This document shows, one piece after another, positions 7,820 to 62,775 of a stretch of DNA of 64,000 nt. The notes under the pieces were generated by a model. That model was not told where the DNA came from. It saw only the letters and a program-made list of their open reading frames with translations, and made no database searches. Within the stretch, counting starts at the first letter, position 1; every line of letters begins with the position of its first letter. Source of the stretch: Pseudonocardia sp. C8. Its GTDB lineage: Bacteria > Actinomycetota > Actinomycetes > Mycobacteriales > Pseudonocardiaceae. The stretch covers positions 3,621,501 through 3,685,500 of the forward strand of contig NZ_JACMTR010000002.1 of assembly GCF_014267175.1 (NCBI RefSeq). Reading direction: 5' to 3'. Made by a program: the position numbers and the translations under genes.

Positions 7820-9385
7820 TCAGGGACGGGTGAGCGCGCAGCGGGCCCCCTCGGGCGGCAGCGTCAGGTGCACGAGGTAGTCGGCCACCACGTCGTCGAC
7901 GCAGGGGTGGCCCTCGGCGGCGGCGGTGTGCTGGGCGCCCTCGACGGTCAGCAGGCGGGCGTGCAGCGCCTCGGCCAGCCGGACCCCGGCCCGGTACGGC
8001 GTGGCCGGGTCGCCGGTGGTCGAGATGACCAGGGTCGGCGGGAGGCCCGGCGCGTGCGGCAGGTGGGCGACGCCGGTGGGGGTGATCGGCAGGAACGCGC
8101 ACGTGTCGAGCGCGCCGGAGGTGCCCCGCCCGGCGTCGGCGAACGGCGCGGCCGCGGTCGCGCGCCGGGACAGCTCGGCGGCGACGGTGCGGTCGGTGAT
8201 CCGGTCCCCGTCGGCGCAGTTGACGACCTGCAGGGCCTCCATGTCGTCCGGGTAGGTGCCGTCGGGGCGACGGCCGTAGTACTGGTCGGCCAGCCGCAGC
8301 AGGGTGGCGCCGTCTCCGGCGCGCAGCTGGGCGAGCCCCGTGGACAGCTCCGGCCACGCGTGCGAGCCGTACATCGCGGCGAACACGGCGGTGAGCGCGT
8401 CCGAGTAGGACAGCGTCCGCGTGTCGCCCGGCACCGGGGCGGGCCGGTCGATCAGCGGCCGGGTCAGGGCCTGGAACTCGGCCGTGGCACGCGCCGGGTC
8501 GGTGCCCAGTGGGCAGGACGGGCGGCGCACGCAGTCGGCCGCGAAGGCGTCGAACGCCTGCTGGAAGCCGGCCATCTGGGCGACGCTGCTGTCCACGGCG
8601 TTCTCGGTCGGGTCCACGGCGCCGTCGAGCACCATCGCCCGGACGTTGCCCGGGAACCGTTCGGCGTACTCGGCGCCGATCCGCGTGCCGTAGGAGAAGC
8701 CGAGGTAGGTGAGCCGGCGGTCGCCGAGCGCCGCACGCAGGATGTCCAGGTCCCGGGCGACCTCCCGGGTGCCGGCGTGGGCCAGCACGTCGGCGCCCGA
8801 GCGCCGCACGCAGTTCGCCGCCTCCCGCCGGCTGCGGTCCTCGGCCCGCGCGACGCCGGCCGGGGAGGTGTCGTGGTCGGCGTCGGCTCGCTCGGCGTCC
8901 CACTCCGCGTCGCTGAGGCAGTCGATCCGCGGGGTGCTGGCCCCGACCCCGCGCGGGTCGAACCCGACGACGTCGAACGGCCCACCGCCGAGCGCCCCGC
9001 TCATCCCGGCGGCGAACGACGTCCCGGACCCACCCGGGCCGCCGGGGTTGAGCACCAGCGACCCGATCGCGGGCTGGTCGGCGCGGTTCCGCAGCACCGC
9101 GACCTGCGCGGTACGCCCGCCGGGTGCGGCGTAGTCGAGCGGGACCTCGAGCCGTGCGCAGTCGAACGCCGGGTCCTCGAACAGCGCACGGTCGTCGGCG
9201 TTCGTCGCCAGCGGCGCGCACGGCCCCCAGGCCAGCCGCTGGCCGTAGAAGCGCTCGAGACCGGGTGGGACGGGGGCCGGCCCGGGCTCCGCCGGTGGAC
9301 CGGCCGCCGGGGCCGCACAGGAGGTGACGGCAAGTCCGGTGAGGACGGCCAGGGCGGCGGCCACCCGGTGACGTCGACGGGCCAT
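7820..9385 (-). CDS. Secreted lipoprotein alpha/beta hydrolase, tripeptidyl-aminopeptidase type
   Basis: 521 aa. The N-terminus is a lipoprotein signal (RRR, hydrophobic stretch, lipobox VTSC with lipidated Cys23) followed by a Pro/Ala-rich linker. The alpha/beta-hydrolase core has an oxyanion loop NPGGPGGSG, a nucleophile elbow GFSYGTR (Ser231), and a C-terminal TAP-like domain carrying the Asp/His part (STTGDPATPY; GAQHTAA). Such actinomycete enzymes release N-terminal tripeptides or hydrolyse esters at the cell surface. The start was set at the ATG before the signal peptide, with GAAAGGG upstream; the frame stays open for over 100 codons upstream. Confidence 0.88.
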   Translation of the reverse strand: MARRRHRVAAALAVLTGLAVTSCAAPAAGPPAEPGPAPVPPGLERFYGQRLAWGPCAPLATNADDRALFEDPAFDCARLEVPLDYAAPGGRTAQVAVLRNRADQPAIGSLVLNPGGPGGSGTSFAAGMSGALGGGPFDVVGFDPRGVGASTPRIDCLSDAEWDAERADADHDTSPAGVARAEDRSRREAANCVRRSGADVLAHAGTREVARDLDILRAALGDRRLTYLGFSYGTRIGAEYAERFPGNVRAMVLDGAVDPTENAVDSSVAQMAGFQQAFDAFAADCVRRPSCPLGTDPARATAEFQALTRPLIDRPAPVPGDTRTLSYSDALTAVFAAMYGSHAWPELSTGLAQLRAGDGATLLRLADQYYGRRPDGTYPDDMEALQVVNCADGDRITDRTVAAELSRRATAAAPFADAGRGTSGALDTCAFLPITPTGVAHLPHAPGLPPTLVISTTGDPATPYRAGVRLAEALHARLLTVEGAQHTAAAEGHPCVDDVVADYLVHLTLPPEGARCALTRP

Positions 9386-18156: not shown

Positions 18157-20331
18157 GTGAGCACGATCGACGACAAGCACGCCCAGCTCGGTGGCAACGC
18201 CGGGGTGCTCGGCGCCCCGGTCGGAGCGGAGTTCACCACGGCCGACGGGATCGGCCGCGCCCGCCACTACCAGCGGGGATCGATCTACCAGCTACCGGGC
18301 GTCGGGGCGCACGCGGTCCACGGGGCGATCATGGTCAAGTGGTCCGCGCTCGGGCTGGAGGCCGGACCGCTCGGCTACCCGCTGACCGACGAGACCACCA
18401 CCCCGGACGGCGTCGGCCGCTTCAACCACTTCCAGCACGGATCGATCTACTGGACCCCGGCCACCGGCGCCCACGAGGTGCACGGCGCGATCCGGAACCG
18501 ATGGCAGGCGCTGGGCTGGGAGCAGGGCATCCTCGGCTACCCGCTGACCGACGAGACCGCCACCCCCGACGGGATCGGTCGCTACAACCATTTCACCGGC
18601 CAGAACGGGTCGATCTACTGGCATCCCGCCACCGGCGCCAACGAGGTCTACGGGATGATCAAGCAGCGCTGGGCCGAACTGGACTGGGAGCGGGGCCGGC
18701 TCGGCTACCCGATCAGCGGGGAGATGCCGACCCCGCACGGGTTCGGCCGGGTCAGCCGGTTCCAGGGCGGCGAGATCTACTGGGACGCCGGCCGCGGCCC
18801 CTACGAGGTGTGGCCGCCCCCGCCGCCGCCCGTGTGCTCCGGCCCGCTCGAGGGGTCGTGGCAGGTCGCCCCGATCGACTCGGTGGTCGTCGGGGTGCAC
18901 GCGGTGCTGCTGCGCACGGGCAAGATCCTCTTCTGGAACTACCTGGACCCGCCCGGCGAGCACGAACCCTCCGCACCGCAACCCCACGGCGAGTCCGCGG
19001 TCGTCAACCTCGCCAACGGCAACCGGCAACGGCCCCAGCAGGCGCCCGGGAACCCGAACCTGTTCTGCGCCGGCCAGTCCCTGCTCGCCGACGGCCGGGT
19101 GCTCGTCGCGGGCGGTGAGCGCGAGCAGGCACACGTCGACGCCCTGCACACGTTCACACCGGGCGGCGGTTCCGGGGGCAGCTGGCAACGGGTCGGGACG
19201 CTGGCGACCGGCCGCTGGTACCCGACCTGCGTGACCCTGCCCGACGGCCGGGTGCTGATCCTCGGCGGCAAGAACTGGCGGGCGGGCCAGCCGGCCGGGA
19301 ACGCGCACACCTACGAGGTCTACGACCCGGACGGCGGCGGGCTCGCACCGCCGAAACCCGCACCCGTGCTCGCCGAGGCCGCCGGCTTCGACACCTACCC
19401 GTTCGTCTTCGTCCTCCCGAACGGGACCCTGCTCATGCACGCCGGCACCCGCACCCGCTTCCTCGATCTGGCGACGATGCAGCACACCCCGACGGCCCTG
19501 GACGCCGCTGCCCGCCCGGGCCGCAACGGCCGGACCTACGGCATGGAGGGCACCAGCGTGCTGCTGCCGCTGCTGCCGGACAGCACACCGGCGTACCGGG
19601 CGCGGGTCATGCTGATCGGCGGCGGGGGCGCCCCACCGGTGGACATGCGCACCGAGGCGACCCGCAGCTGCGAGCTGCTCGACCTCGGCACCGCGAGCCC
19701 CGCCTGGACGCTGACCGCGCCGATGACTCAGCCGCGTGTCATGCCGGACGCGGTGCTGCTGCCCGACGGCACGGTGTTCGTCGCGAACGGCAGCAGCAGC
19801 GGGTACGCCGACAACGGCGCCAACCCGGTCTACCCGGCCGAACGGTACGACCCCGCGACGGACACCTGGCTGTCGGCCTGCACCATGGCCGTCCCGCGCC
19901 TCTACCACGCGACCGCGCTGCTGCTCCCCGACGGCCGGGTCCTCACCGCCGGCACCGACTCCCAGTGGAACCCCGACCCGTTCCACCACTCCGAGCTGCG
20001 GATGGAGCTCTACAGCCCGCCCTACCTGTTCCGCGGGCCCCGGCCGGCGATCGACCAGGCACCGCCAGAGGCCGGCTGGGACGCGGAGATCGCGGTGTCC
20101 GTCTCCGGTCCGGCCGTCACGCAGGCCTGCCTGATCCGGTGCGGCTCGTCGACCCACTCGTTCAACTCCGACCAGCGTCACGTCGGCCTGACGATCGTGT
20201 CCCGAACCGGTGGGACCGTCGTGCTCCGCACGCCGCCGAACGGTTTCGTGGCGCCGCCGGGGTACTACCTGCTGTTCGTGCTCAGCGGCGCGGGGGTGCC
20301 GTCGGTGGCGGCGATGATCCGGCTCGGCTGA
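18157..20331 (+). CDS. LGFP-repeat / galactose-oxidase-like copper radical oxidase fusion
   Basis: 724 aa starting at a GTG behind GGAGG. Residues 1-222 hold four LGFP-type repeats (LGYPLTDE appears twice, then LGYPISGE), which in other actinomycetes associate with the cell wall. After a Pro stretch comes a kelch-type seven-bladed oxidase with a C-terminal DUF1929 domain. All candidate copper-radical residues are seen: Cys304 (LFCAGQ), Tyr355 (GRWYPT), Tyr583-His584 (RLYHAT) and His667 (THSFNSDQR), spaced much as in galactose/glyoxal oxidases; Trp374 may be the stacking residue. No Sec or Tat signal is visible, which is odd for this class. Secretion by a non-classical route or cytoplasmic action is open. 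Confidence 0.85.
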   Translation: MSTIDDKHAQLGGNAGVLGAPVGAEFTTADGIGRARHYQRGSIYQLPGVGAHAVHGAIMVKWSALGLEAGPLGYPLTDETTTPDGVGRFNHFQHGSIYWTPATGAHEVHGAIRNRWQALGWEQGILGYPLTDETATPDGIGRYNHFTGQNGSIYWHPATGANEVYGMIKQRWAELDWERGRLGYPISGEMPTPHGFGRVSRFQGGEIYWDAGRGPYEVWPPPPPPVCSGPLEGSWQVAPIDSVVVGVHAVLLRTGKILFWNYLDPPGEHEPSAPQPHGESAVVNLANGNRQRPQQAPGNPNLFCAGQSLLADGRVLVAGGEREQAHVDALHTFTPGGGSGGSWQRVGTLATGRWYPTCVTLPDGRVLILGGKNWRAGQPAGNAHTYEVYDPDGGGLAPPKPAPVLAEAAGFDTYPFVFVLPNGTLLMHAGTRTRFLDLATMQHTPTALDAAARPGRNGRTYGMEGTSVLLPLLPDSTPAYRARVMLIGGGGAPPVDMRTEATRSCELLDLGTASPAWTLTAPMTQPRVMPDAVLLPDGTVFVANGSSSGYADNGANPVYPAERYDPATDTWLSACTMAVPRLYHATALLLPDGRVLTAGTDSQWNPDPFHHSELRMELYSPPYLFRGPRPAIDQAPPEAGWDAEIAVSVSGPAVTQACLIRCGSSTHSFNSDQRHVGLTIVSRTGGTVVLRTPPNGFVAPPGYYLLFVLSGAGVPSVAAMIRLG

Positions 20332-27930: not shown

Positions 27931-28002
27931 TGGGCGATACTGGGATCGAACCAGTGACCTCTTCGGTGTGAACGAAGCGCTCTCCCCCTGAGCTAATCGC
28001 CC
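27931..28002 (-). tRNA. tRNA-Val, anticodon CAC
   Basis: The cloverleaf folds on the minus strand: acceptor GGGCGAT pairs with ATCGCCC, the anticodon stem CTTCG/CGAAG encloses TTCACAC (anticodon CAC, reads GUG), and the T arm has GGTTCGATCC. Discriminator A at 27931; CCA is not encoded. Confidence 0.93.
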
Positions 28003-29642: not shown

Positions 29643-29715
29643 GCGGACGTAGCGCAGCTGGTAGCGCATCACCTTGCCAAGGTGAGGGTCGCGGGTTCGA
29701 GTCCCGTCGTCCGCT
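29643..29715 (+). tRNA. tRNA-Gly, anticodon GCC (copy 1)
   Basis: Acceptor GCGGACG pairs with CGTCCGC; anticodon loop TTGCCAA in stem CACC/GGTG gives GCC. Discriminator T; no encoded CCA. First member of a Gly-Cys-Val triplet. Confidence 0.95.
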
Positions 29716-29764
29716 CGGAGGAACGGCCCTGAGCCGGGACCTTCCAGCAGAGCCCCCGGGCTCT

Positions 29765-29836
29765 GGCGGAGTGGCCGAGTGGCTTAGGCAAGGGCCTGCA
29801 AAGCCCTGTACGCGGGTTCGATTCCCGCCTCCGCCT
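29765..29836 (+). tRNA. tRNA-Cys, anticodon GCA (copy 1)
   Basis: Acceptor GGCGGAG/CTCCGCC; anticodon loop CTGCAAA gives GCA. Differs from copy 2 by a compensated acceptor-stem pair (A-T here, C-G there). One base separates it from the next tRNA. Confidence 0.95.
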
Positions 29837-29837
29837 C

Positions 29838-29909
<72 letters not shown>

Positions 29910-29914
29910 CCACC

Positions 29915-29945
29915 AAGATCCCCGGGCCCACGGTCCGGGGATCTT
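29915..29945 (+). terminator. Terminator after the first tRNA triplet
   Basis: Arms AAGATCCCCGG and CCGGGGATCTT are complementary. A related hairpin follows the second triplet at 30331-30360. Confidence 0.7.
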
Positions 29946-30072
29946 CGCGTTTCCGGCCGCGTTCGCTCCGAGCGCCCGCGACCACCCCCCTCGCACACCG
30001 CGACGGACCGTGCGCTATCGTTGACCCCAACGCACCGGGAACGAGCGGCACACACTCGGGAACGGTACGAAT

Positions 30073-30145
30073 GCGGACGTAGCGCAGCTGGTAGCGCATC
30101 ACCTTGCCAAGGTGAGGGTCGCGGGTTCGAGTCCCGTCGTCCGCT
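30073..30145 (+). tRNA. tRNA-Gly, anticodon GCC (copy 2)
   Basis: Same sequence as copy 1 over the full tRNA. A CGCTATCGT stretch about 60 bp upstream resembles the TAGTGT-type -10 elements found upstream of copies 1 and 3. Confidence 0.95.
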
Positions 30146-30176
30146 CGGCCGGGTCTCGATCACGAGCCGGGTATCC

Positions 30177-30248
30177 GGCGGCGTGGCCGAGTGGCTTAGG
30201 CAAGGGCCTGCAAAGCCCTGTACGCGGGTTCGATTCCCGCCGCCGCCT
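30177..30248 (+). tRNA. tRNA-Cys, anticodon GCA (copy 2)
   Basis: Acceptor GGCGGCG/CGCCGCC; the rest matches copy 1. The paired change in the acceptor stem keeps the helix intact. Confidence 0.95.
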
Positions 30249-30249
30249 C

Positions 30250-30321
<72 letters not shown>

Positions 30322-30330
30322 CCACTGACG

Positions 30331-30360
30331 AATCCCCGGACCACGAACGGTCCGGGGATT
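30331..30360 (+). terminator. Terminator after the second tRNA triplet
   Basis: Arms AATCCCCGGACC (30331-30342) and GGTCCGGGGATT (30349-30360) followed by TCTTCT. A clear intrinsic terminator. Confidence 0.8.
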
Positions 30361-30447
30361 TCTTCTGTTCCGGACCCGGCGCGCCTTGACAGCCCGCGCA
30401 GACCTGTGATCATGCGCGCAGTCGTCTCGCCGCATGTCGGAGGAACC

Positions 30448-31341
30448 ATGGCTCGCGAGCTCACCACCGTCGTCCCGGACCTCACGTTCGCCGAGAGCCC
30501 GCGCTGGCACGACAACCGCGTCTGGTTCGTCGACTTCTACACCCACCGCGTGTACTCCGCCCTCGAGGACGGCGGCGATCTGCGGGTCGAGGCCGAGGTC
30601 CCGCAGCAGCCGTCCGGGCTGGGCTGGCTGCCCGACGGGCGCCTCCTGACCGTCTCCATGCGCGACGCGAGGGTGCTGCGCCGGGAGGCCGACGGTGCGC
30701 TCGTGACGCACGCCGACCTGAGCGCGCACGTCGGCGGCCACCTCAACGACATGGTCGTCGACGCCGACGGTCGCGCCTTCGCGGGGAACTTCGGTTTCGA
30801 CCTCATGTCGGGTGCCCCGCTCGCGCCGGCGGCGCTGCTGCGGATCGACCCGGACGGCACCGTCACCCCGGTCGCCGACGACATGTGGTTCGCCAACGGC
30901 TGCGTCCTGACCGACGATGGCCGGCTGCTGGTCGCCGAGACGTTCGGCAACCGGATCAGCGCGTTCGACGTCGGCGTGGACGGCTCGCTGTCGAACCGCC
31001 GGACCTGGGCGGGGTTCGGGGAGCTTCCCACCGAGACCGACGTGCCCTCCGCACTCGGCCAGCTCGTCGTCGCTCCCGACGGATGCTGCCTGGACGCCGA
31101 GGGGGCGCTCTGGGTCGCCGACGCGCTCGGCAACCGGCTGCTGCGACTCCGGGAGGGCGGCGAGATCCTCGACGAGATCGACACCGGCACCGGTGTCTAC
31201 GCCTGCATGCTCGGCGGCGCCGACGGCCGCACCCTGTTCGCGTGCACCGCGCCCGACTTCGCCGAGGAGGCCCGGCGCAACGCCCGGGAGGCCGCCCTGG
31301 TGGCGGTGCGGGTGGACGTCCCGCACGGCGGACGCCCCTGA
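30448..31341 (+). CDS. SMP-30/gluconolactonase-type (LRE) beta-propeller hydrolase
   Basis: 297 aa. A six-bladed SMP-30 propeller is indicated by FAESPRWHDNRVWFVDFYTH (metal-ligand Glu), GLGWLPDGRLLTVSM, LNDMVVDADGRAFAGNFGFD (Asn/Asp ligand) and CCLDAEGALWVADALGN (Asp ligand). Such enzymes are Ca/Zn-dependent lactonases acting on sugar lactones or related esters. The ATG at 30448 with GGAGGAACC upstream was preferred to starts 42 nt earlier. It lies between the second tRNA triplet and the lone tRNA-Gly. The substrate is unknown. Confidence 0.87.
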   Translation: MARELTTVVPDLTFAESPRWHDNRVWFVDFYTHRVYSALEDGGDLRVEAEVPQQPSGLGWLPDGRLLTVSMRDARVLRREADGALVTHADLSAHVGGHLNDMVVDADGRAFAGNFGFDLMSGAPLAPAALLRIDPDGTVTPVADDMWFANGCVLTDDGRLLVAETFGNRISAFDVGVDGSLSNRRTWAGFGELPTETDVPSALGQLVVAPDGCCLDAEGALWVADALGNRLLRLREGGEILDEIDTGTGVYACMLGGADGRTLFACTAPDFAEEARRNAREAALVAVRVDVPHGGRP

Positions 31342-31404
31342 TCCGGCGGTCACGGCACCGTGCGCTAGTGTCCCCCTGCACGCACCGGGGATCCCGGAGC
31401 GACT

Positions 31405-31477
31405 GCGGACGTAGCGCAGCTGGTAGCGCATCACCTTGCCAAGGTGAGGGTCGCGGGTTCGAGTCCCGTCGTCCGCT
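31405..31477 (+). tRNA. tRNA-Gly, anticodon GCC (copy 3)
   Basis: Same sequence as copies 1 and 2. No Cys and Val genes follow; instead the NUDIX ATG lies 2 nt beyond the tRNA 3' end. A GCTAGTGTC promoter-like segment lies about 40 bp upstream. Confidence 0.95.
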
Positions 31478-35359: not shown

Positions 35360-35393
35360 GTCAGGGCTCGCGCCGGCGCCCCGTCGCGGGCGC

Positions 35394-35575
35394 TGCGATG
35401 CCGACCGGTGGCGGGACGGCAGCGCGCGTTGCGACATCGACGCGCTGGCGAGCCGGTGAGGGGCGCTGCGACATCGACGCGACGGCGAGCCGGTGAGGGG
35501 CGCTGCGGCACCGCCGGCGTGGCGAACCGGTGACGGCACTGCGGCGTGCCGCGGTGGCGAACCGGCCACCGGAGA
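35394..35575. repeat. 37-bp imperfect tandem repeat (about 5 copies)
   Basis: Copies begin at 35394, 35430, 35467, 35504 and 35540 (period 36-37 bp) with the theme TGCGACATCGACGCG ... GGCGAGCCGGTGAGG. Copies 2 and 3 are almost identical and the outer ones degrade. The period is not a fixed multiple of three and no supported gene covers it. Confidence 0.75.
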
Positions 35576-35684: not shown

Positions 35685-36002
35685 ATGGGCCGACGCCGCC
35701 GCGAGCCGGTGCAGGTCGTCACCGACCTGCGCGAGCCGCTCGCGGTCGAGCACGGCCGGCGGATCCGGATCCGGCTCGTCGCGATGGTCGTCTGGATCGC
35801 GGGCTGGATCGTCGCCGGCACGCAGTGGCAGGACGGCGTGCTCGCGACCATGATCCTTCTCGCCAGCGGCCCCGGGGTCTGGCTCCTGTGGTTCGTGTTC
35901 GTGCCGCCACGGCACGCCGCGGGACGACGCCGGCCCGTCACCCCACCCCCACCGCGCGCACTCCCCCGCGGCACGGATCCGGGACGAAACGACCGGCCCT
36001 GA
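35685..36002 (+). CDS. Small two-helix membrane protein
   Basis: 105 aa. A basic N-terminus (MGRRRREPVQVVTD) precedes two hydrophobic segments, IRLVAMVVWIAGWIVAG and TMILLASGPGVWLLWFVFVP, then a Pro/Arg-rich tail. No family recognised. The ATG at 35685 lies after a GTAGCGTCGACGGT stretch with no clear ribosome site. It is the only supported gene inside the repeat-rich interval. Confidence 0.6.
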   Translation: MGRRRREPVQVVTDLREPLAVEHGRRIRIRLVAMVVWIAGWIVAGTQWQDGVLATMILLASGPGVWLLWFVFVPPRHAAGRRRPVTPPPPRALPRGTDPGRNDRP

Positions 36003-36004
36003 GA

Positions 36005-36560
36005 GTCGATCAGCACGCGGGCGCCCCGGGGACGACCGGAACGCGCGACTCGACCACGGCGCACCGATCGATCAGCACGTTCGTGCCCCTGCGAGGACCG
36101 AACCGTGCAACTCGGCCACGGCACGCCAGTCGATCAGCACACATCCGCCCACCGAGGGCCCAGAACGTGCGTCTCGACGGAATCGCGTCAGTCGATCAGC
36201 ACGATCACGCCCCACCGACGGCCAGAACGCGCGACTCGACGACGGCACACCGGTCGATCAGCACGTTCGCGCCCCACCGAGGACCGAAACGCGCAACTCG
36301 GCCACGGCACGCCAGTCGATCAGCACACATCCGCCGACCGAGGGCGCAGAACGTGCGTCTCGGCAGAATCGCGTCAGTCGATCAGCACCTTCGCGCCCCA
36401 CCGACGGCCAGAACGCGCAACTCGACCACAGCACGCCAGTCGATCAGCACGAACTCGCCCGCCGGGGTCCAGAACGTGCGTCTCGACGGGATCGCGTCAG
36501 TCGATCAGCGCGATCGCGCCCGCCGAGGGCTGGAGCGTGCGCCTCAGCCACCCGGGCGCT
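36005..36560. repeat. 62-bp tandem-repeat array 1 (9 copies)
   Basis: The core GTCGATCAGCAC recurs with TCGATCAGC starting at 36006, 36068, 36130, 36192, 36254, 36316, 36378, 36440 and 36501: eight steps, seven of exactly 62 bp and the last 61. A second conserved box, close to GAACGTGCGTCTCG or GAACGCGCAACTCG, lies about 35 bp into each unit. Units 1-3 and 4-6 match each other as trimers (186-bp higher-order repeat). A 62-bp period cannot encode a peptide repeat in one frame, so this is noncoding. Confidence 0.93.
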
Positions 36561-36600
36561 CGGCGTGCTCGGTGTACTCGTCGCCGTCGTCTCGACGCTC

Positions 36601-36684
36601 GGCGCCTGGCAATCGGCGCCTGGCAATCGGCGCCTGGCCACCGGCGCCTGGCCATCGGCGCCTGGCCATCGGCGCCTGGCCATC
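36601..36684. repeat. 14-bp tandem repeat (6 copies)
   Basis: Six contiguous units of GGCGCCTGGCAATC or GGCGCCTGGCCATC. It lies between array 1 and the end of the fprA-type gene. Likely variable in copy number. Confidence 0.92.
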
Positions 36685-36855
36685 GGCGCGGAGGCCGCGG
36701 GGTCCATCGACGCCTGCAGCGTGCGTCTCGGCGGAAAGCGCGTCGGTCGAGCGGCCCGCCCCGGCACCGGGCGCCCTGGCAGGGGGTGGGCGGCCACGGC
36801 GCTCCGCGACCGCCCACCCGAGCCCCGGCGTCACGTCGCCGGGTGGCGACCGGGA

Positions 36856-38184
36856 TCAGCCGGCGCGGCTGATCTCCACCATCTCCTCGCGCGGGACCAC
36901 CTTCATCCGCTCGCGGCCGCGGTCCTCCCCGAGCCGGCGCTCGTGCTTGTCCAGGGCCAGCCAGCCGTCCCAGGTCGTGAACTCGACACCGCGGCGGTCG
37001 AGCAGCTCGGGCACGGCCGCCGGGTCGCGCCGCGGCGCGCGGGGCAGGTCCGGCGCATCGGCGAGCAGGCTCCCGACCGTTTCCAGGGCGCAGCCCTTGG
37101 TGTGCCCGATCAGGCCGACCGGGCCCCGCTTGATCCAGCCGACGGCGTACACGCCGGGCATCCCCTGCACCCGGCCCGCCTCGTGCGGGATCACCCCGCG
37201 GGCGGCGTCGAACGGCAGCTCGGCGACCTCCGACCCGGTGTAGCCGACCGCCCGGTAGACCGCGCCCACCGGGTACTCGGTGAACACGCCGGTCCCGCGG
37301 ACGTTCCCGTCGCCGGTGTACTCGGTGCGCTCCACGCGCAGCCCCTCGACGCGCTCGGCCCCGAGGACCCGGTCGGGCCGGGCGAGGAAGTGCAGGTGCA
37401 CCCGCCGCGGGTCGCCACGACGGTCGCGCAGCGCCCAGTCCTGCAGGATCTTCACGACCATCTGGACGTGCTTGGTGGCGCGGATCTCCTGCATCGAGCC
37501 GTCGTCGAACTCGACGTCCTCCGGCTCGACGATCACCTCGACGCCGGGCACCTTGTCGAGCTCCCGCAGCTCCATCGGGCTGAACCGGGCCTGGGCCAGG
37601 CCGCGCCGGGCGAACACGTGCACGTCGGTGGCCGAGTTGGCGGCGAGCCCGGCGTGCACCGAGTCGGGGATCTCGGTGTCGAGCATGTCGCCGGCGGACT
37701 TCGCCAGCACCCGCGCGACGTCCAGCGCCACGTTCCCGGCGCCGATCACGGCGACTGAGCGGGCGTCGAGCGTCCAGTCCCGCGGGACGTCGGGGTGGCC
37801 GTCGTACCACTGGACGAACTCCGCGGCACCGTGGCTGCCGGGCAGGTCGACGCCGGGGATGTCGAGGTCGCGGTCGCGTTCGCAGCCGGTCGCGACGATC
37901 ATGCCGTCATAGTGCTCGCGCAGGTCGGCCAGCGTCACATCGGTGCCGAACTCGACGTTGCCGAACAGCCGCACGGCCGGGTTGTCCAGCACCCGGTGCA
38001 GCGCGTGCACGATCTGCTTGATCCGCGGATGGTCGGGAGCGACGCCGTAGCGCACCAGCCCGAACGGCGCGGGCAGCTTCTCGAACAGGTCGACGGTCAC
38101 GTCGGTGTCGGACTTGAGCAGGGTGTCGGCGGCGTAGATCCCGGCCGGTCCGGCACCCACCACCGCCACGCGCAGCGCGGTCAT
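36856..38184 (-). CDS. fprA: FprA-type NADPH-ferredoxin (adrenodoxin-like) reductase
   Basis: 442 aa with FAD motif VAVVGAGPAGIYAADTLL at the N-terminus, APFGLVRYGVAPDHPRIK, a second nucleotide site VAVIGAGNVALDVARVLAKS and FARRGLAQARFSPMELREL for NADPH, ending with GWIKRGPVGLIGHTKGC. This is the FprA/adrenodoxin-reductase family, which passes electrons from NADPH to ferredoxins that can feed P450s, such as the one at 39231. GAGGAG precedes the ATG. A sequence like an iron-regulator box lies in the 55 bp upstream. Confidence 0.9.
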   Translation of the reverse strand: MTALRVAVVGAGPAGIYAADTLLKSDTDVTVDLFEKLPAPFGLVRYGVAPDHPRIKQIVHALHRVLDNPAVRLFGNVEFGTDVTLADLREHYDGMIVATGCERDRDLDIPGVDLPGSHGAAEFVQWYDGHPDVPRDWTLDARSVAVIGAGNVALDVARVLAKSAGDMLDTEIPDSVHAGLAANSATDVHVFARRGLAQARFSPMELRELDKVPGVEVIVEPEDVEFDDGSMQEIRATKHVQMVVKILQDWALRDRRGDPRRVHLHFLARPDRVLGAERVEGLRVERTEYTGDGNVRGTGVFTEYPVGAVYRAVGYTGSEVAELPFDAARGVIPHEAGRVQGMPGVYAVGWIKRGPVGLIGHTKGCALETVGSLLADAPDLPRAPRRDPAAVPELLDRRGVEFTTWDGWLALDKHERRLGEDRGRERMKVVPREEMVEISRAG

Positions 38185-60128: not shown

Positions 60129-61042
60129 CCGGTCCCCCGCCGGGTGGTGCGCCGCGCCGCCGTGCGGCGGGGCTCGCCCTCGCGGTGAGCTGGCTGACCG
60201 TGCTGCCCGTCCGCGTCCGCACGACACCGGACGGCGGCCTGCCGGACGGGGTGGCGGCCGCGGCGCTGCGCTGGGCCCCGGTGGTCGGGCTGGGGCTGGG
60301 GCTGGCCGGCGGCGGGCTGCTGGTCGGGCTCACCGCGCTCGGCGTGTCGCCGCTGGTCGCGGGCCTGGTCGTCGTGGGCGCGGGTGCGCTCGCGACCCGC
60401 GGCATGCACGTCGACGGGCTCGCCGACACCGCCGACGGGCTCGGCAGCTACGGGCCGCCGGAGCGCGCGCTGCGGATCATGGCTGACGGCGGGGCGGGCC
60501 CGTTCGCCGTCGTCACGCTGCTGGTCGTGTTGGGCGGGCGGGCCGCGGCGCTGGCGCAGCTCGCCGCCGCTCCGCCGCTCGCGGTCCTCGCGGCGTGCGC
60601 GCTGGCCGCCGCGGTCGGGCGGGCCGGGTTCTGCTGGGTCGCCCGCCGCGGGACACCTCCGGCGCGCCCGGGCGGGCTCGGGGCGACGGTCGCCGGGTCG
60701 CAGCCGGTCTGGGTGGCACCGCTGTGGTGGACCGGGCTCGCCGGTGCGGGGGCGGCGGCCCTGGTGGCGGCGGTCGACGCGGCCGAACCGGCCCTCTGGC
60801 CCGCCGAGCGGCTGACCCGGTCGCCGGGGGCGGTGGACCTGGCCGGCCCCGGCACACTCGCCGGGGCCGGGATCGCGGCGGCCGTGGCCGGTGCGGTGCT
60901 GCTCGCCGCGCTGCTGGTGGTGGGCCTGGCCCGCCACACCCGGCGGCGGTTCGGCGGGATGAGCGGGGACGTCCTGGGTGCCGCTGCCGAGCTCGGGAGC
61001 ACCGCGGTCCTGGTCGTGCTGGCCGCCGCGCTCACCGTGTGA
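60125..61042 (+). CDS. cobS: Adenosylcobinamide-GDP ribazoletransferase (cobalamin synthase)
   Basis: 305 aa integral-membrane enzyme with the CobS signature ATRGMHVDGLADTADGLGSYG and C-terminal RFGGMSGDVLGAAAELGSTA. It joins GDP-cobinamide to alpha-ribazole in the last steps of cobalamin synthesis. GTG 60125 overlaps the cobUT stop (GTGA), so both are co-translated. No cobalamin riboswitch was recognised upstream. Confidence 0.93.
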   Translation: MTGPPPGGAPRRRAAGLALAVSWLTVLPVRVRTTPDGGLPDGVAAAALRWAPVVGLGLGLAGGGLLVGLTALGVSPLVAGLVVVGAGALATRGMHVDGLADTADGLGSYGPPERALRIMADGGAGPFAVVTLLVVLGGRAAALAQLAAAPPLAVLAACALAAAVGRAGFCWVARRGTPPARPGGLGATVAGSQPVWVAPLWWTGLAGAGAAALVAAVDAAEPALWPAERLTRSPGAVDLAGPGTLAGAGIAAAVAGAVLLAALLVVGLARHTRRRFGGMSGDVLGAAAELGSTAVLVVLAAALTV

Positions 61043-61164
61043 TCACCCGTCGTGGAGTGTGGCGAGCGTCGCGCGGGGCGGGCGTTCTCGCCCCGATCCG
61101 GGCTCGTGCCGACCGGCACTCGGGTATCGGTCGACGCGCGCGATGTCGTCCCGACGACGGCGCG

Positions 61165-61560
61165 ACCGCGCTGATCGACTCGCCCGGGGTCGCCCCAGGT
61201 AAACGTACTCGCCCCGGGCGGGGCGGCTTCGCGCTGATCGACTCACCAACGCCGGCCGACCTGCACGATCCCGCCCCGGGACAGGCGAACCCGTGCTGAT
61301 CGACCCGCCGAGGTCGCTCCAGGTGCACGTACTCGCCCCGGGCGGGGCGGCTTCGCGCTGATCGACTCACCAACGCCGGCCGACCTGCACGTTGTCGCCA
61401 TGGTGCGGGCAGATTCGCGCTGATCGACCCACCGGAGCCCACCGACCTGCACGATTCCGCCCCAGGACAGGCGAACCCGCGCTGTTCGACCCTCCCCCTG
61501 GTCGGTCGATGCGCACGTTCCCGCCCGGTCGAGCACGTTTCGTGCTGATCGACTCGCTGC
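61165..61560. repeat. 62-bp tandem-repeat array 2 (7 copies), opposite orientation to array 1
   Basis: GCTGATCGAC, the complement of GTCGATCAGC, starts at 61170, 61233, 61295, 61357, 61419, 61481 (as GCTGTTCGAC) and 61544: steps of 63, 62, 62, 62, 62 and 63 bp. A 63-bp stretch at 61206-61268 recurs exactly at 61330-61392, giving a 124-bp higher-order dimer. It fills the 611-bp gap between cobS and ilvE and shows the same core and period as array 1. Confidence 0.92.
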
Positions 61561-61653: not shown

Positions 61654-62775
61654 TCAGACGGCGGCCGGTGCGGGCACGAGGGTCCGCATCCAGCCGTGCG
61701 GGTCCGGGGCGGCGCCCCGCTGGACCGCGGTCAGCGCCTCGCGCAGCTGCATCGTGACGGGACCCGGCTCACCGTTCCCGACGGCCACCTCGCCACCTGC
61801 GTGCTTCACCGTGCCGATCGGCGTGATGACCGCGGCGGTGCCGCAGCCGAACGCCTCCGTCAGCGTCCCGTCGGCGGCCCGGTCGAGCCACTCCTTGCCG
61901 GAGATCCGGCGCTCGACGACGTCGATCCCCAGGTCCTTCGCCACGGTGATCAACGAGTCGCGGGTGATGCCGGCCAGCACCGCACCGCGCAGGTCCGGGG
62001 TCGCGAGCTCGAGACCGCCGTCGGCGTCGCGGAACACGAAGAACAGGTTGTTCGAGCCCATCTCGTCGATCCAGGTACGTTCCTCGGCGTCGAGGTAGGC
62101 GACCTGGGCGCACCCGTGCTCGGCGCCGATGGCCTGCGGCAGCAGCGAGGCCGCGTAGTTGCCGCCGCACTTGGCGGTGCCGGTACCGCCGAGGGCCGCC
62201 CGGGTGTACTCGGTCTCCAGCCACACGTCCATCGGCTTCACCCCGTCCGCGAAGTACGGGCCGGCCGGCGAGGCGATGAGGGCGTAGAGGTACTCCGGCG
62301 ACGGCCGCACCCCGAGCCCGATCGCGGTCGCGATCATGAACGGGCGGAGGTAGAGGGAGTCCTCACCGCCGGCGGCGGGCACCCACTCGGCGTCCACGGC
62401 GAGCAGCTCGGTGAGCGAGGCGAGGAACAGCTCCGCGGGCAGCTCGGCCATCGCCATCCGCCGGGCCGACCCGGCGAACCGGGCGGCGTTGGCGTCCGGC
62501 CGGAACGAGGCGATGGAGCCGTCCGGCTGCCGGTAGGCCTTGAGCCCTTCGAAGATCTCCTGCCCGTAGTGCAGCACCATCGCCGACGGGTCGAGGGTGA
62601 ACGGCCCGTACGGGACGACCGCCGGGTCGTGCCACCCGGTGCCCTCGGTGTAGCGGATGGTGACCATGTGGTCGGTGAAGTACCGGCCGAAGCCGGGGTC
62701 GGCCAGTACCTCGGCGCGCCGCTGGGGGGACGCCGGGGCGCGGTTGGGGGTCACGGTGAACTGCGGCGCGCTCAT
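61654..62775 (-). CDS. ilvE: Branched-chain amino acid aminotransferase
   Basis: 373 aa fold-type IV PLP enzyme. Lys202 in GGTGTAKCGGNYAAS is the expected Schiff-base residue; EIFEGLKAYRQPDGSIASFR, LYLRPFMIAT and MGSNNLFFVFRD are family landmarks. Performs the last step of Val, Leu and Ile synthesis and the first of their breakdown. ATG 62775 lies 8 nt after TACCGT without a ribosome site (leaderless). Confidence 0.95.
   Translation of the reverse strand: MSAPQFTVTPNRAPASPQRRAEVLADPGFGRYFTDHMVTIRYTEGTGWHDPAVVPYGPFTLDPSAMVLHYGQEIFEGLKAYRQPDGSIASFRPDANAARFAGSARRMAMAELPAELFLASLTELLAVDAEWVPAAGGEDSLYLRPFMIATAIGLGVRPSPEYLYALIASPAGPYFADGVKPMDVWLETEYTRAALGGTGTAKCGGNYAASLLPQAIGAEHGCAQVAYLDAEERTWIDEMGSNNLFFVFRDADGGLELATPDLRGAVLAGITRDSLITVAKDLGIDVVERRISGKEWLDRAADGTLTEAFGCGTAAVITPIGTVKHAGGEVAVGNGEPGPVTMQLREALTAVQRGAAPDPHGWMRTLVPAPAAV

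Follow-up and report, generated by a model that had tools for sequence, protein, structure and literature searches.

The two regularly spaced arrays in the window (the whole stretch of 64,000 nucleotides from Pseudonocardia sp. C8 that was analysed) were confirmed, from the alignment of their units, as one repeat family, the unit of which is a 46-bp interrupted palindrome plus 16 bp, about 13 bp of this being free sequence. Neither the palindromic nature of the unit nor the isolated hairpins found in relatives had been seen in the preliminary description of this DNA; its reading of a single family undergoing local expansion was supported. That the arrays are of the REP/BIME-like class is fairly secure. 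Their mechanism is put forward tentatively, at somewhat less than an even chance: a REP/BIME-like system of one Pseudonocardia clade, locked in period, which would act on DNA as a protein-bound barrier.

Array 2 (61132..61553, + strand) comprised seven palindromic elements arranged head to tail with a period of 62-63 bp. Six elements of 46 bp each started at 61132, 61195, 61257, 61319, 61381 and 61443 on the + strand; the seventh, of 45 bp with a 1-bp gap at its centre, ended at about 61551 on the same strand. The first element (61132..61177, +) consisted of a left arm, a GC-rich centre and a right arm, with the core GCTGATCGAC at 61170, and was separated from the second by a linker (61178..61194, +) of AC and then free sequence. 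Exact cores were located on the + strand at 61170, 61233, 61295, 61357, 61419 and 61544; seven copies had originally been counted, of which these six stand, while the seventh, at 61481, is a variant with one mismatch (GCTGTTCGAC). The array lies between a cobS-like gene (60185..61042, +) and an ilvE-like gene (61654..62775, -), convergent neighbours to left and right respectively, and the spacing first given for it there was borne out both by the core steps of 62-63 bp and by a TRF period of 62. Array 1 (36007..36553, - strand) contained nine units of the same family, with a period of 62 bp and a 186-bp trimer structure; eight exact cores occurred on the - strand between 36005 and 36509, with one variant at 36067-36076. 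A small ORF (35685..36002, +) ended just before it, and its convergent right neighbour was a ferredoxin-NADP reductase-like gene (fpr; 36856..38184, -), such that both window arrays were flanked by convergent genes. The names cobS, ilvE and ferredoxin-NADP reductase are presumed, being in part carried over from the preliminary description. The window contained 15 copies of the core GCTGATCGAC, where 0.31 were expected, and none of 100 shuffles had 15 or more.

The higher-order structure that had been described was recovered by TRF in both arrays, where a period of 62 was also detected. In array 2 a 124-bp dimer gave 85% matches, against 69% for 62 bp; in array 1 a 186-bp trimer gave 88%, against 72%. 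When elements were compared without their linkers, identity in array 1 peaked at lag 3 (0.89), and lags 2 and 3 were equal in array 2 (0.75 each).

Several other features of the window were recorded in passing. A stray GCTGATCGAC core was located at 8447, outside both arrays. Array 1 was adjoined by a 14-bp tandem array with a different unit (TCGGCGCCTGGCCA, 6.5 copies with 96% matches by TRF, 36599-36689), and a 37-bp tandem repeat of 3-4 copies (35390-35565) was found upstream of the small ORF that precedes array 1; three different tandem arrays thus occur within about 1.3 kb. Seven tRNA genes were present on the + strand at 29643-31477 and an eighth at 27931 on the - strand; their scores recurred (70.4 three times, 66.5 twice and 64.8 twice), which suggests duplicated tRNA blocks. 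A 168-bp tandem repeat at 18370-18711 may encode LGFP-type repeats, to judge by its letters.

Units of the two arrays aligned over 46 bp, far past the 10-bp core to which their similarity might have been confined, and had in common the arms CGAnnnGCACG / CGTGCtgaTCGAC and a GCC/GGC centre. The cores lie on opposite strands, as reported (array 2 on +, array 1 on -), and the CGTGCA box noted previously is real, being the other, inverted, arm of the palindrome. Each unit contains two inverted half-sites, CGA-N3-GCACG, the right arm in the window being CGTGCTGATCGAC. When units were aligned in phase, the left arm read YGA-N3-GCACG, the centre GCC..GGC and the right arm CGTGC-TGA-TCG, followed by AC. 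Position frequencies in which each array from the genome of the window (G000) was weighted equally showed that the arms and the GCC/GGC block were conserved, and that unit positions 49-61 were near background composition across the G000 arrays.

The family was widespread in G000. A covariance model built from 37 units produced at least 150 matches in this genome, in 55 clusters, and a sample of 62 stretches was chosen by model matches (53 clusters outside the window, 8 further stretches and the window itself). A whole-genome scan had been proposed at the outset; with a symmetric PWM (threshold 14), 379 elements were found in the 62 stretches, every one of which held at least one; four elements stood singly and the others made up 59 arrays, each with 2 to 15 elements. 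The threshold was passed by six of the seven elements of array 2 and seven of the nine units of array 1. The first element of array 2 scored 30.9 and the best score in mononucleotide-shuffled sequence was 4.9, a gap that arises partly by construction, since the PWM was built from 48 elements that included window and relative copies. Steps between elements were exactly 62 bp in 256 of 316 cases and 61-63 bp in 279, and 62 was the modal step in 56 of the 58 stretches with steps under 100 bp.

The core alone was not diagnostic of the repeat. That it might recur elsewhere without the spacing proved partly true: there were 409 exact copies in G000 and, by eye, 14 of the first 30 were repeat-like, the rest being coding-like. 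However, a pattern search found 76 pairs of cores 60-64 bp apart, against none for a reversed control; these pairs include three loci beyond the 62 stretches (716770, 2168346 and 4174360). A separate scan of genome contigs for tandem cores identified at least 119 stretches. In the 119 listed, steps were 60 or 63 bp, as expected of coding Leu-Ile-Asp, except in L099 (64) and L104 (62), and among them only L104, from P. ammonioxydans, fitted the unit profile.

Genes were called by a codon-usage finder trained on G000 and applied to the relatives too. None of the 63 arrays or singles in G000 lay mostly inside a predicted gene; 24 were in convergent, 35 in tandem and 4 in divergent contexts. Among gaps of 150 bp or more in these stretches that held no array (n = 71), 9 were convergent, 27 tandem and 35 divergent. 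Divergent gaps were therefore strongly under-represented (4/63 vs 35/71, p = 2.9e-8), indicating that promoter gaps are avoided, and convergent gaps were over-represented (24/63 vs 9/71, p = 0.0011). Gene 3' flanks were favoured by the G000 arrays, and only 4 of 63 arrays or singles were within 25 bp of a stop codon. Orientation relative to replication, a check proposed earlier, was evaluated with the origin taken beside dnaA (best DnaA match C2:5488449) and the terminus opposite; arrays in G000 were not polarised (32 co, 29 contra, p = 0.80). KOPS being a replication-polarised motif, a KOPS-like identity was rejected on this result. Separately, an array of ten to twelve units of the family was observed beside, and apparently 3' of, dnaA itself (L263, G000:C2 about 5487111-5487725).

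Within G000, mean identity of the element was 0.749 within arrays and 0.659 between them; for the linker the values were 0.629 and 0.417. The repeated local expansion suggested in the preliminary description is upheld, because within-array identity exceeds between-array identity and copy number differs at orthologous loci (below). Exactly one arm carried GATC in 306 of 379 elements in G000, in 7/7 in the single P. ammonioxydans array, in 25/44 in G061 and in 1/11 in G070. Units were mostly head to tail. When orientation was compared with the majority of the array, which is a lenient measure, 339 units in G000 agreed, 9 disagreed and 27 were undecided; the corresponding values were 35, 6 and 3 in G061, 6, 3 and 2 in G070, and 7, 0 and 0 in P. 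ammonioxydans.

Between arrays, the mean identity of 14 linker bases was equal to that obtained by permuting columns (0.358 vs 0.361). Since the linkers were at chance and the step stayed at 62, the period was kept without the sequence being kept. Common descent may explain part of this shared period: 34 pairs of units at distant loci were near-copies, linkers included, at an identity of at least 0.80, where 4.5 were expected (the largest of 30 permutations gave 10). The best pair between loci was 0.94 identical, its loci being about 0.47 Mb apart. Units therefore appear to be copied sometimes between loci. The steps that departed from the period (n = 13) were not in phase with the DNA helix (p = 0.21-0.25 at 10.4-10.5 bp).

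Among relatives, the family was concentrated in one clade. G000 contained 130 exact copies of the 13-mer CGTGCTGATCGAC, and none of 59 relatives had more than 13. With a further model, for which 17 palindromes from G026 and G002 were used, 20 of 62 genomes of the genus, G000 among them, gave matches at E<=1e-5. On a tree of one gene (ilvE) from 27 genomes, the strong carriers G000, G061, G079, G026, G070, G002 and G073, together with G074 (4 matches), fell within one 12-genome clade with support of 100/100; this also held G062, G001 and G072, which had no matches, and G035, which had one weak match. Eleven matching genomes were placed outside this clade or were unplaced, and their matches were mostly weak (for example, 7 in G015 and 3 in G008). 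Loci L294 and L298 of G008 and G015 contained isolated palindromes in which the GCCC/GGGC centre was kept and the arms were partly different, possibly representing a wider superfamily.

The loci fetched from relatives were the top model matches. Those of G061 (9 stretches), G070 (4) and P. ammonioxydans (1) contained arrays, in which steps of 61-62 bp were common. Steps were exactly 62 bp in 23 of 35 cases in G061 (and 61 bp in another 5), 3 of 6 in P. ammonioxydans (61 bp in another 2) and 4 of 7 in G070. G061 and the P. ammonioxydans locus L104 may not be independent; L104 had no long match in 10 G061 stretches. Only isolated elements were found in the loci fetched from G079 (10), G073 (5), G074 (2), G026 (11) and G002 (6). 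The 'array' and 'isolated' groups each require a single change on the ilvE tree, with support of only 35/85.

Orthologous loci differed in copy number. A cobS match was identified by tblastn in the 3' flank of ilvE in 22 of the 27 genomes, G000 included. In G061 the cobS-ilvE gap contained seven elements with steps of 59, 62, 117, 62, 62 and 61, and both the units and the linkers were dissimilar to those of the G000 array; the other 20 relatives with a cobS match had no element in this flank. Neither a cobS match nor an element occurred in the ilvE flank of G070, G002, G001 or G021, the flank of G035 lying outside the comparison. At another orthologous locus, G070 had two elements 62 bp apart and G000 had five, with differing arms and linkers, while a third locus held seven elements in P. 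ammonioxydans and one in G000. Three isolated elements occupied orthologous places in G026 and G002 (L276/L287, L277/L286 and L279/L282). Any growth of an isolated element into an array in place would rest on few loci, because none of the isolated elements sampled in G002 and G026 was at a G000 array locus (flanking-gene identity above 45%) and, at the locus of array 1, no element was found beside fpr in six relatives.

The isolated sample consisted of 34 elements from five relatives (G026, G002, G079, G073 and G074), in which related loci of G026, G002 and G079 are not independent. Species means of MFE were -29 to -35 kcal/mol, with mean z of -3.2 to -6.9 against mononucleotide shuffles. These elements paired more than shuffles (88.5 vs 84.6%, 0/500), as did the covariation score exceed them (2/500), and five of ten variable pairs reached p<0.05 over the 34 sites; two further measures, pairs with change on both sides (313/500) and further pair types (112/500), were not above shuffles. 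The array elements of G000 formed a weak hairpin (mean z = -1.4, n = 59) with no covariation, and some of their arm positions paired less often than chance. Intermediate values were obtained from G061 (-2.7, n = 9), four single G000 elements (-3.2) and G070 arrays (-4.2, n = 4), and one P. ammonioxydans element gave +0.4. Half of the isolated elements or slightly more (18/34) lay within 25 bp of a stop codon, 18/34 were in convergent gaps outside predicted genes and 6/34 in predicted ORFs. A 3'-end hairpin is the best explanation of the isolated form, even though no T tract accompanies it (none of the 34 sites had 6 T within 12 nt, whichever strand was read). A known Rfam family was rejected: all eight matches in the window were tRNA, and six carrier loci gave none, so that the element had no match above the gathering score.

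Taken with the census, these results can be accommodated as follows. The isolated 46-bp palindrome, frequently located between convergent genes and directly behind a stop codon, would be a 3'-end hairpin; in the window's species, G061, G070 and P. ammonioxydans it would have been amplified into arrays with a locked 62-bp period, in which most units follow one another head to tail. The regular sites might then be bound by a nucleoid or topology protein, for example gyrase, or by another factor, and a bound array could act as a barrier between neighbouring transcription units. Unequal exchange or slippage, involving one to three units at a time, would alter the copy number, and units would occasionally be copied from one locus to another. 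Action on DNA is inferred because the hairpin of the G000 arrays is weak, while the inverted half-sites and their spacing are kept. Against it, hairpins remain strong in the array elements of G070 (mean z = -4.2, n = 4), the orientation of which is also more mixed (6 agree, 3 disagree), and there is neither helical phasing nor a preferred orientation relative to replication.

Alternatively, the family might work through RNA, each element, single or arrayed, being a bidirectional terminator or an mRNA 3' stabiliser, and an array being several in series. This was judged rather unlikely. It would account for the isolated elements, where hairpins are strong, with paired changes, and the same 18/34 proportion is found both close to stop codons and in convergent gaps outside genes; the fairly strong hairpins of the G070 arrays and the four single G000 elements also agree with it. 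It accounts poorly for the G000 arrays, which fold weakly, do not covary and are seldom (4/63) within 25 bp of a stop codon, and a fixed 62-bp step is not needed for a role in RNA. Moreover, the T tract is absent from all 34 isolated sites, a scan of two regions yielded no terminator-like site, and at one locus a second, apparently unrelated hairpin (by eye) already follows the gene.

Somewhat doubtful too is a variant in which the arrays are satellite DNA with a cognate, candidate trans-acting protein. Inverted CGA-N3-GCACG half-sites would be bound, always in the same 62-bp register, at no fewer than 60 gene flanks, the period being held over free linkers and the arms evolving in concert across the genome (as GATC might indicate), with a plain 3'-end hairpin elsewhere in the clade. 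A neutral or selfish satellite, which we consider unlikely, would dispense with function altogether: a palindrome prone to slippage and template switching would multiply in 3' gaps of low constraint, its period would be inherited, and pairing of the isolated arms would come from quasi-palindrome correction. The dimer and trimer repeats, the orthologous differences in copy number and the near-copies between loci are all consistent with such a process, and simple tolerance fits the avoidance of promoter gaps. However, most linkers are unrelated between arrays and yet the length stays at 62, where drift would be expected to give indels as well, and the half-sites are conserved across about 60 loci.

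Mobility was considered improbable as an explanation. A non-autonomous element (REPIN or MITE-like), mobilised by a transposase in trans, would be palindromic, dispersed to more than 60 loci and capable of leaving near-copies at distant loci, as observed; but the Y1 transposase (PF01797) had no match in G000, in a search that detected it in 5 of 14 control genomes, and RAYT-driven REPs were rejected for this genome accordingly. At the one locus compared in G026, G002 and G079, all three genomes retain the centre of the element and the part to its left, and the right arm differs in length by 13 bp; having no empty site, this locus tests little. A degenerate CRISPR array with a period near 62 bp can be dismissed as a very remote prospect since, despite the regular period, the palindromic repeat and a Cas1 in the genome, the repeats are not near-identical (within-array element identity 0.75), the array near Cas1 has a different 36-bp repeat with a period of about 74 bp, and no element of the family passes in the 19-kb Cas1 stretch (best PWM score -6.8). 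That CRISPR-like array was located at L399 10037-11158 (G000:C2 about 450 kb).

Returning to the REP/BIME-like barrier as the preferred reading, the family may be set beside known systems. It shares with CRISPR arrays a period near 60-70 bp and a palindromic repeat, but differs in lacking near-identical repeats separated by unique spacers. By description, it resembles the MIRU/VNTR loci of mycobacteria, which are likewise tandem repeats between actinobacterial genes, about 50-100 bp in size and varying in the number of copies; such a palindrome is not known from MIRUs. REP/BIME systems, which come with a dedicated transposase, are known for the most part from Gram-negative bacteria, and E. coli BIME-2 is bound and cleaved by DNA gyrase.

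REPs are described as high-copy extragenic palindromes, mostly in convergent or unidirectional gaps and clustered in some species (PMC3733652, PMC2817692), with a length of 20-40 bp (PMC3733652). The present family is likewise an extragenic palindrome in high copy (379 elements, 0/63 loci mostly in a gene), with a preference for convergent or unidirectional gaps (24 convergent, 35 tandem, 4 divergent). It differs in that its palindrome is 46 bp, against the 20-40 bp given for REPs, and is a fixed interrupted dyad; the two ends of the element are YGA and TCG(AC), and its unit frequencies include no invariant GTAG or CGTC tag. The BIMEs of E. coli are named as possible supercoil barriers in one source (PMC6907758). 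Regularly spaced palindromic units in extragenic clusters are common to both (256/316 steps exactly 62 bp here), but units in G000 are head to tail where those of BIMEs alternate, a single 62-bp period is maintained over unrelated linkers, and the phylum is different. No paper on the present repeat was found in the open-licence literature, judged by titles and the starts of abstracts, with subscription papers mostly outside its reach.

The case adds a palindrome family that is present in high copy in an actinobacterial clade of high GC content, and the genome examined has no Y1 transposase. Because some species have isolated hairpins and others period-locked arrays, they constitute a natural series in which to ask how arrays arise, and whether it is the spacing or the hairpin that is selected. 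For actinomycete genetics, the arrays are candidates for use as VNTR markers and as insulators. In sum, the palindrome family is one that works like REP/BIME, and it is not classed among the RAYT-linked REPs.
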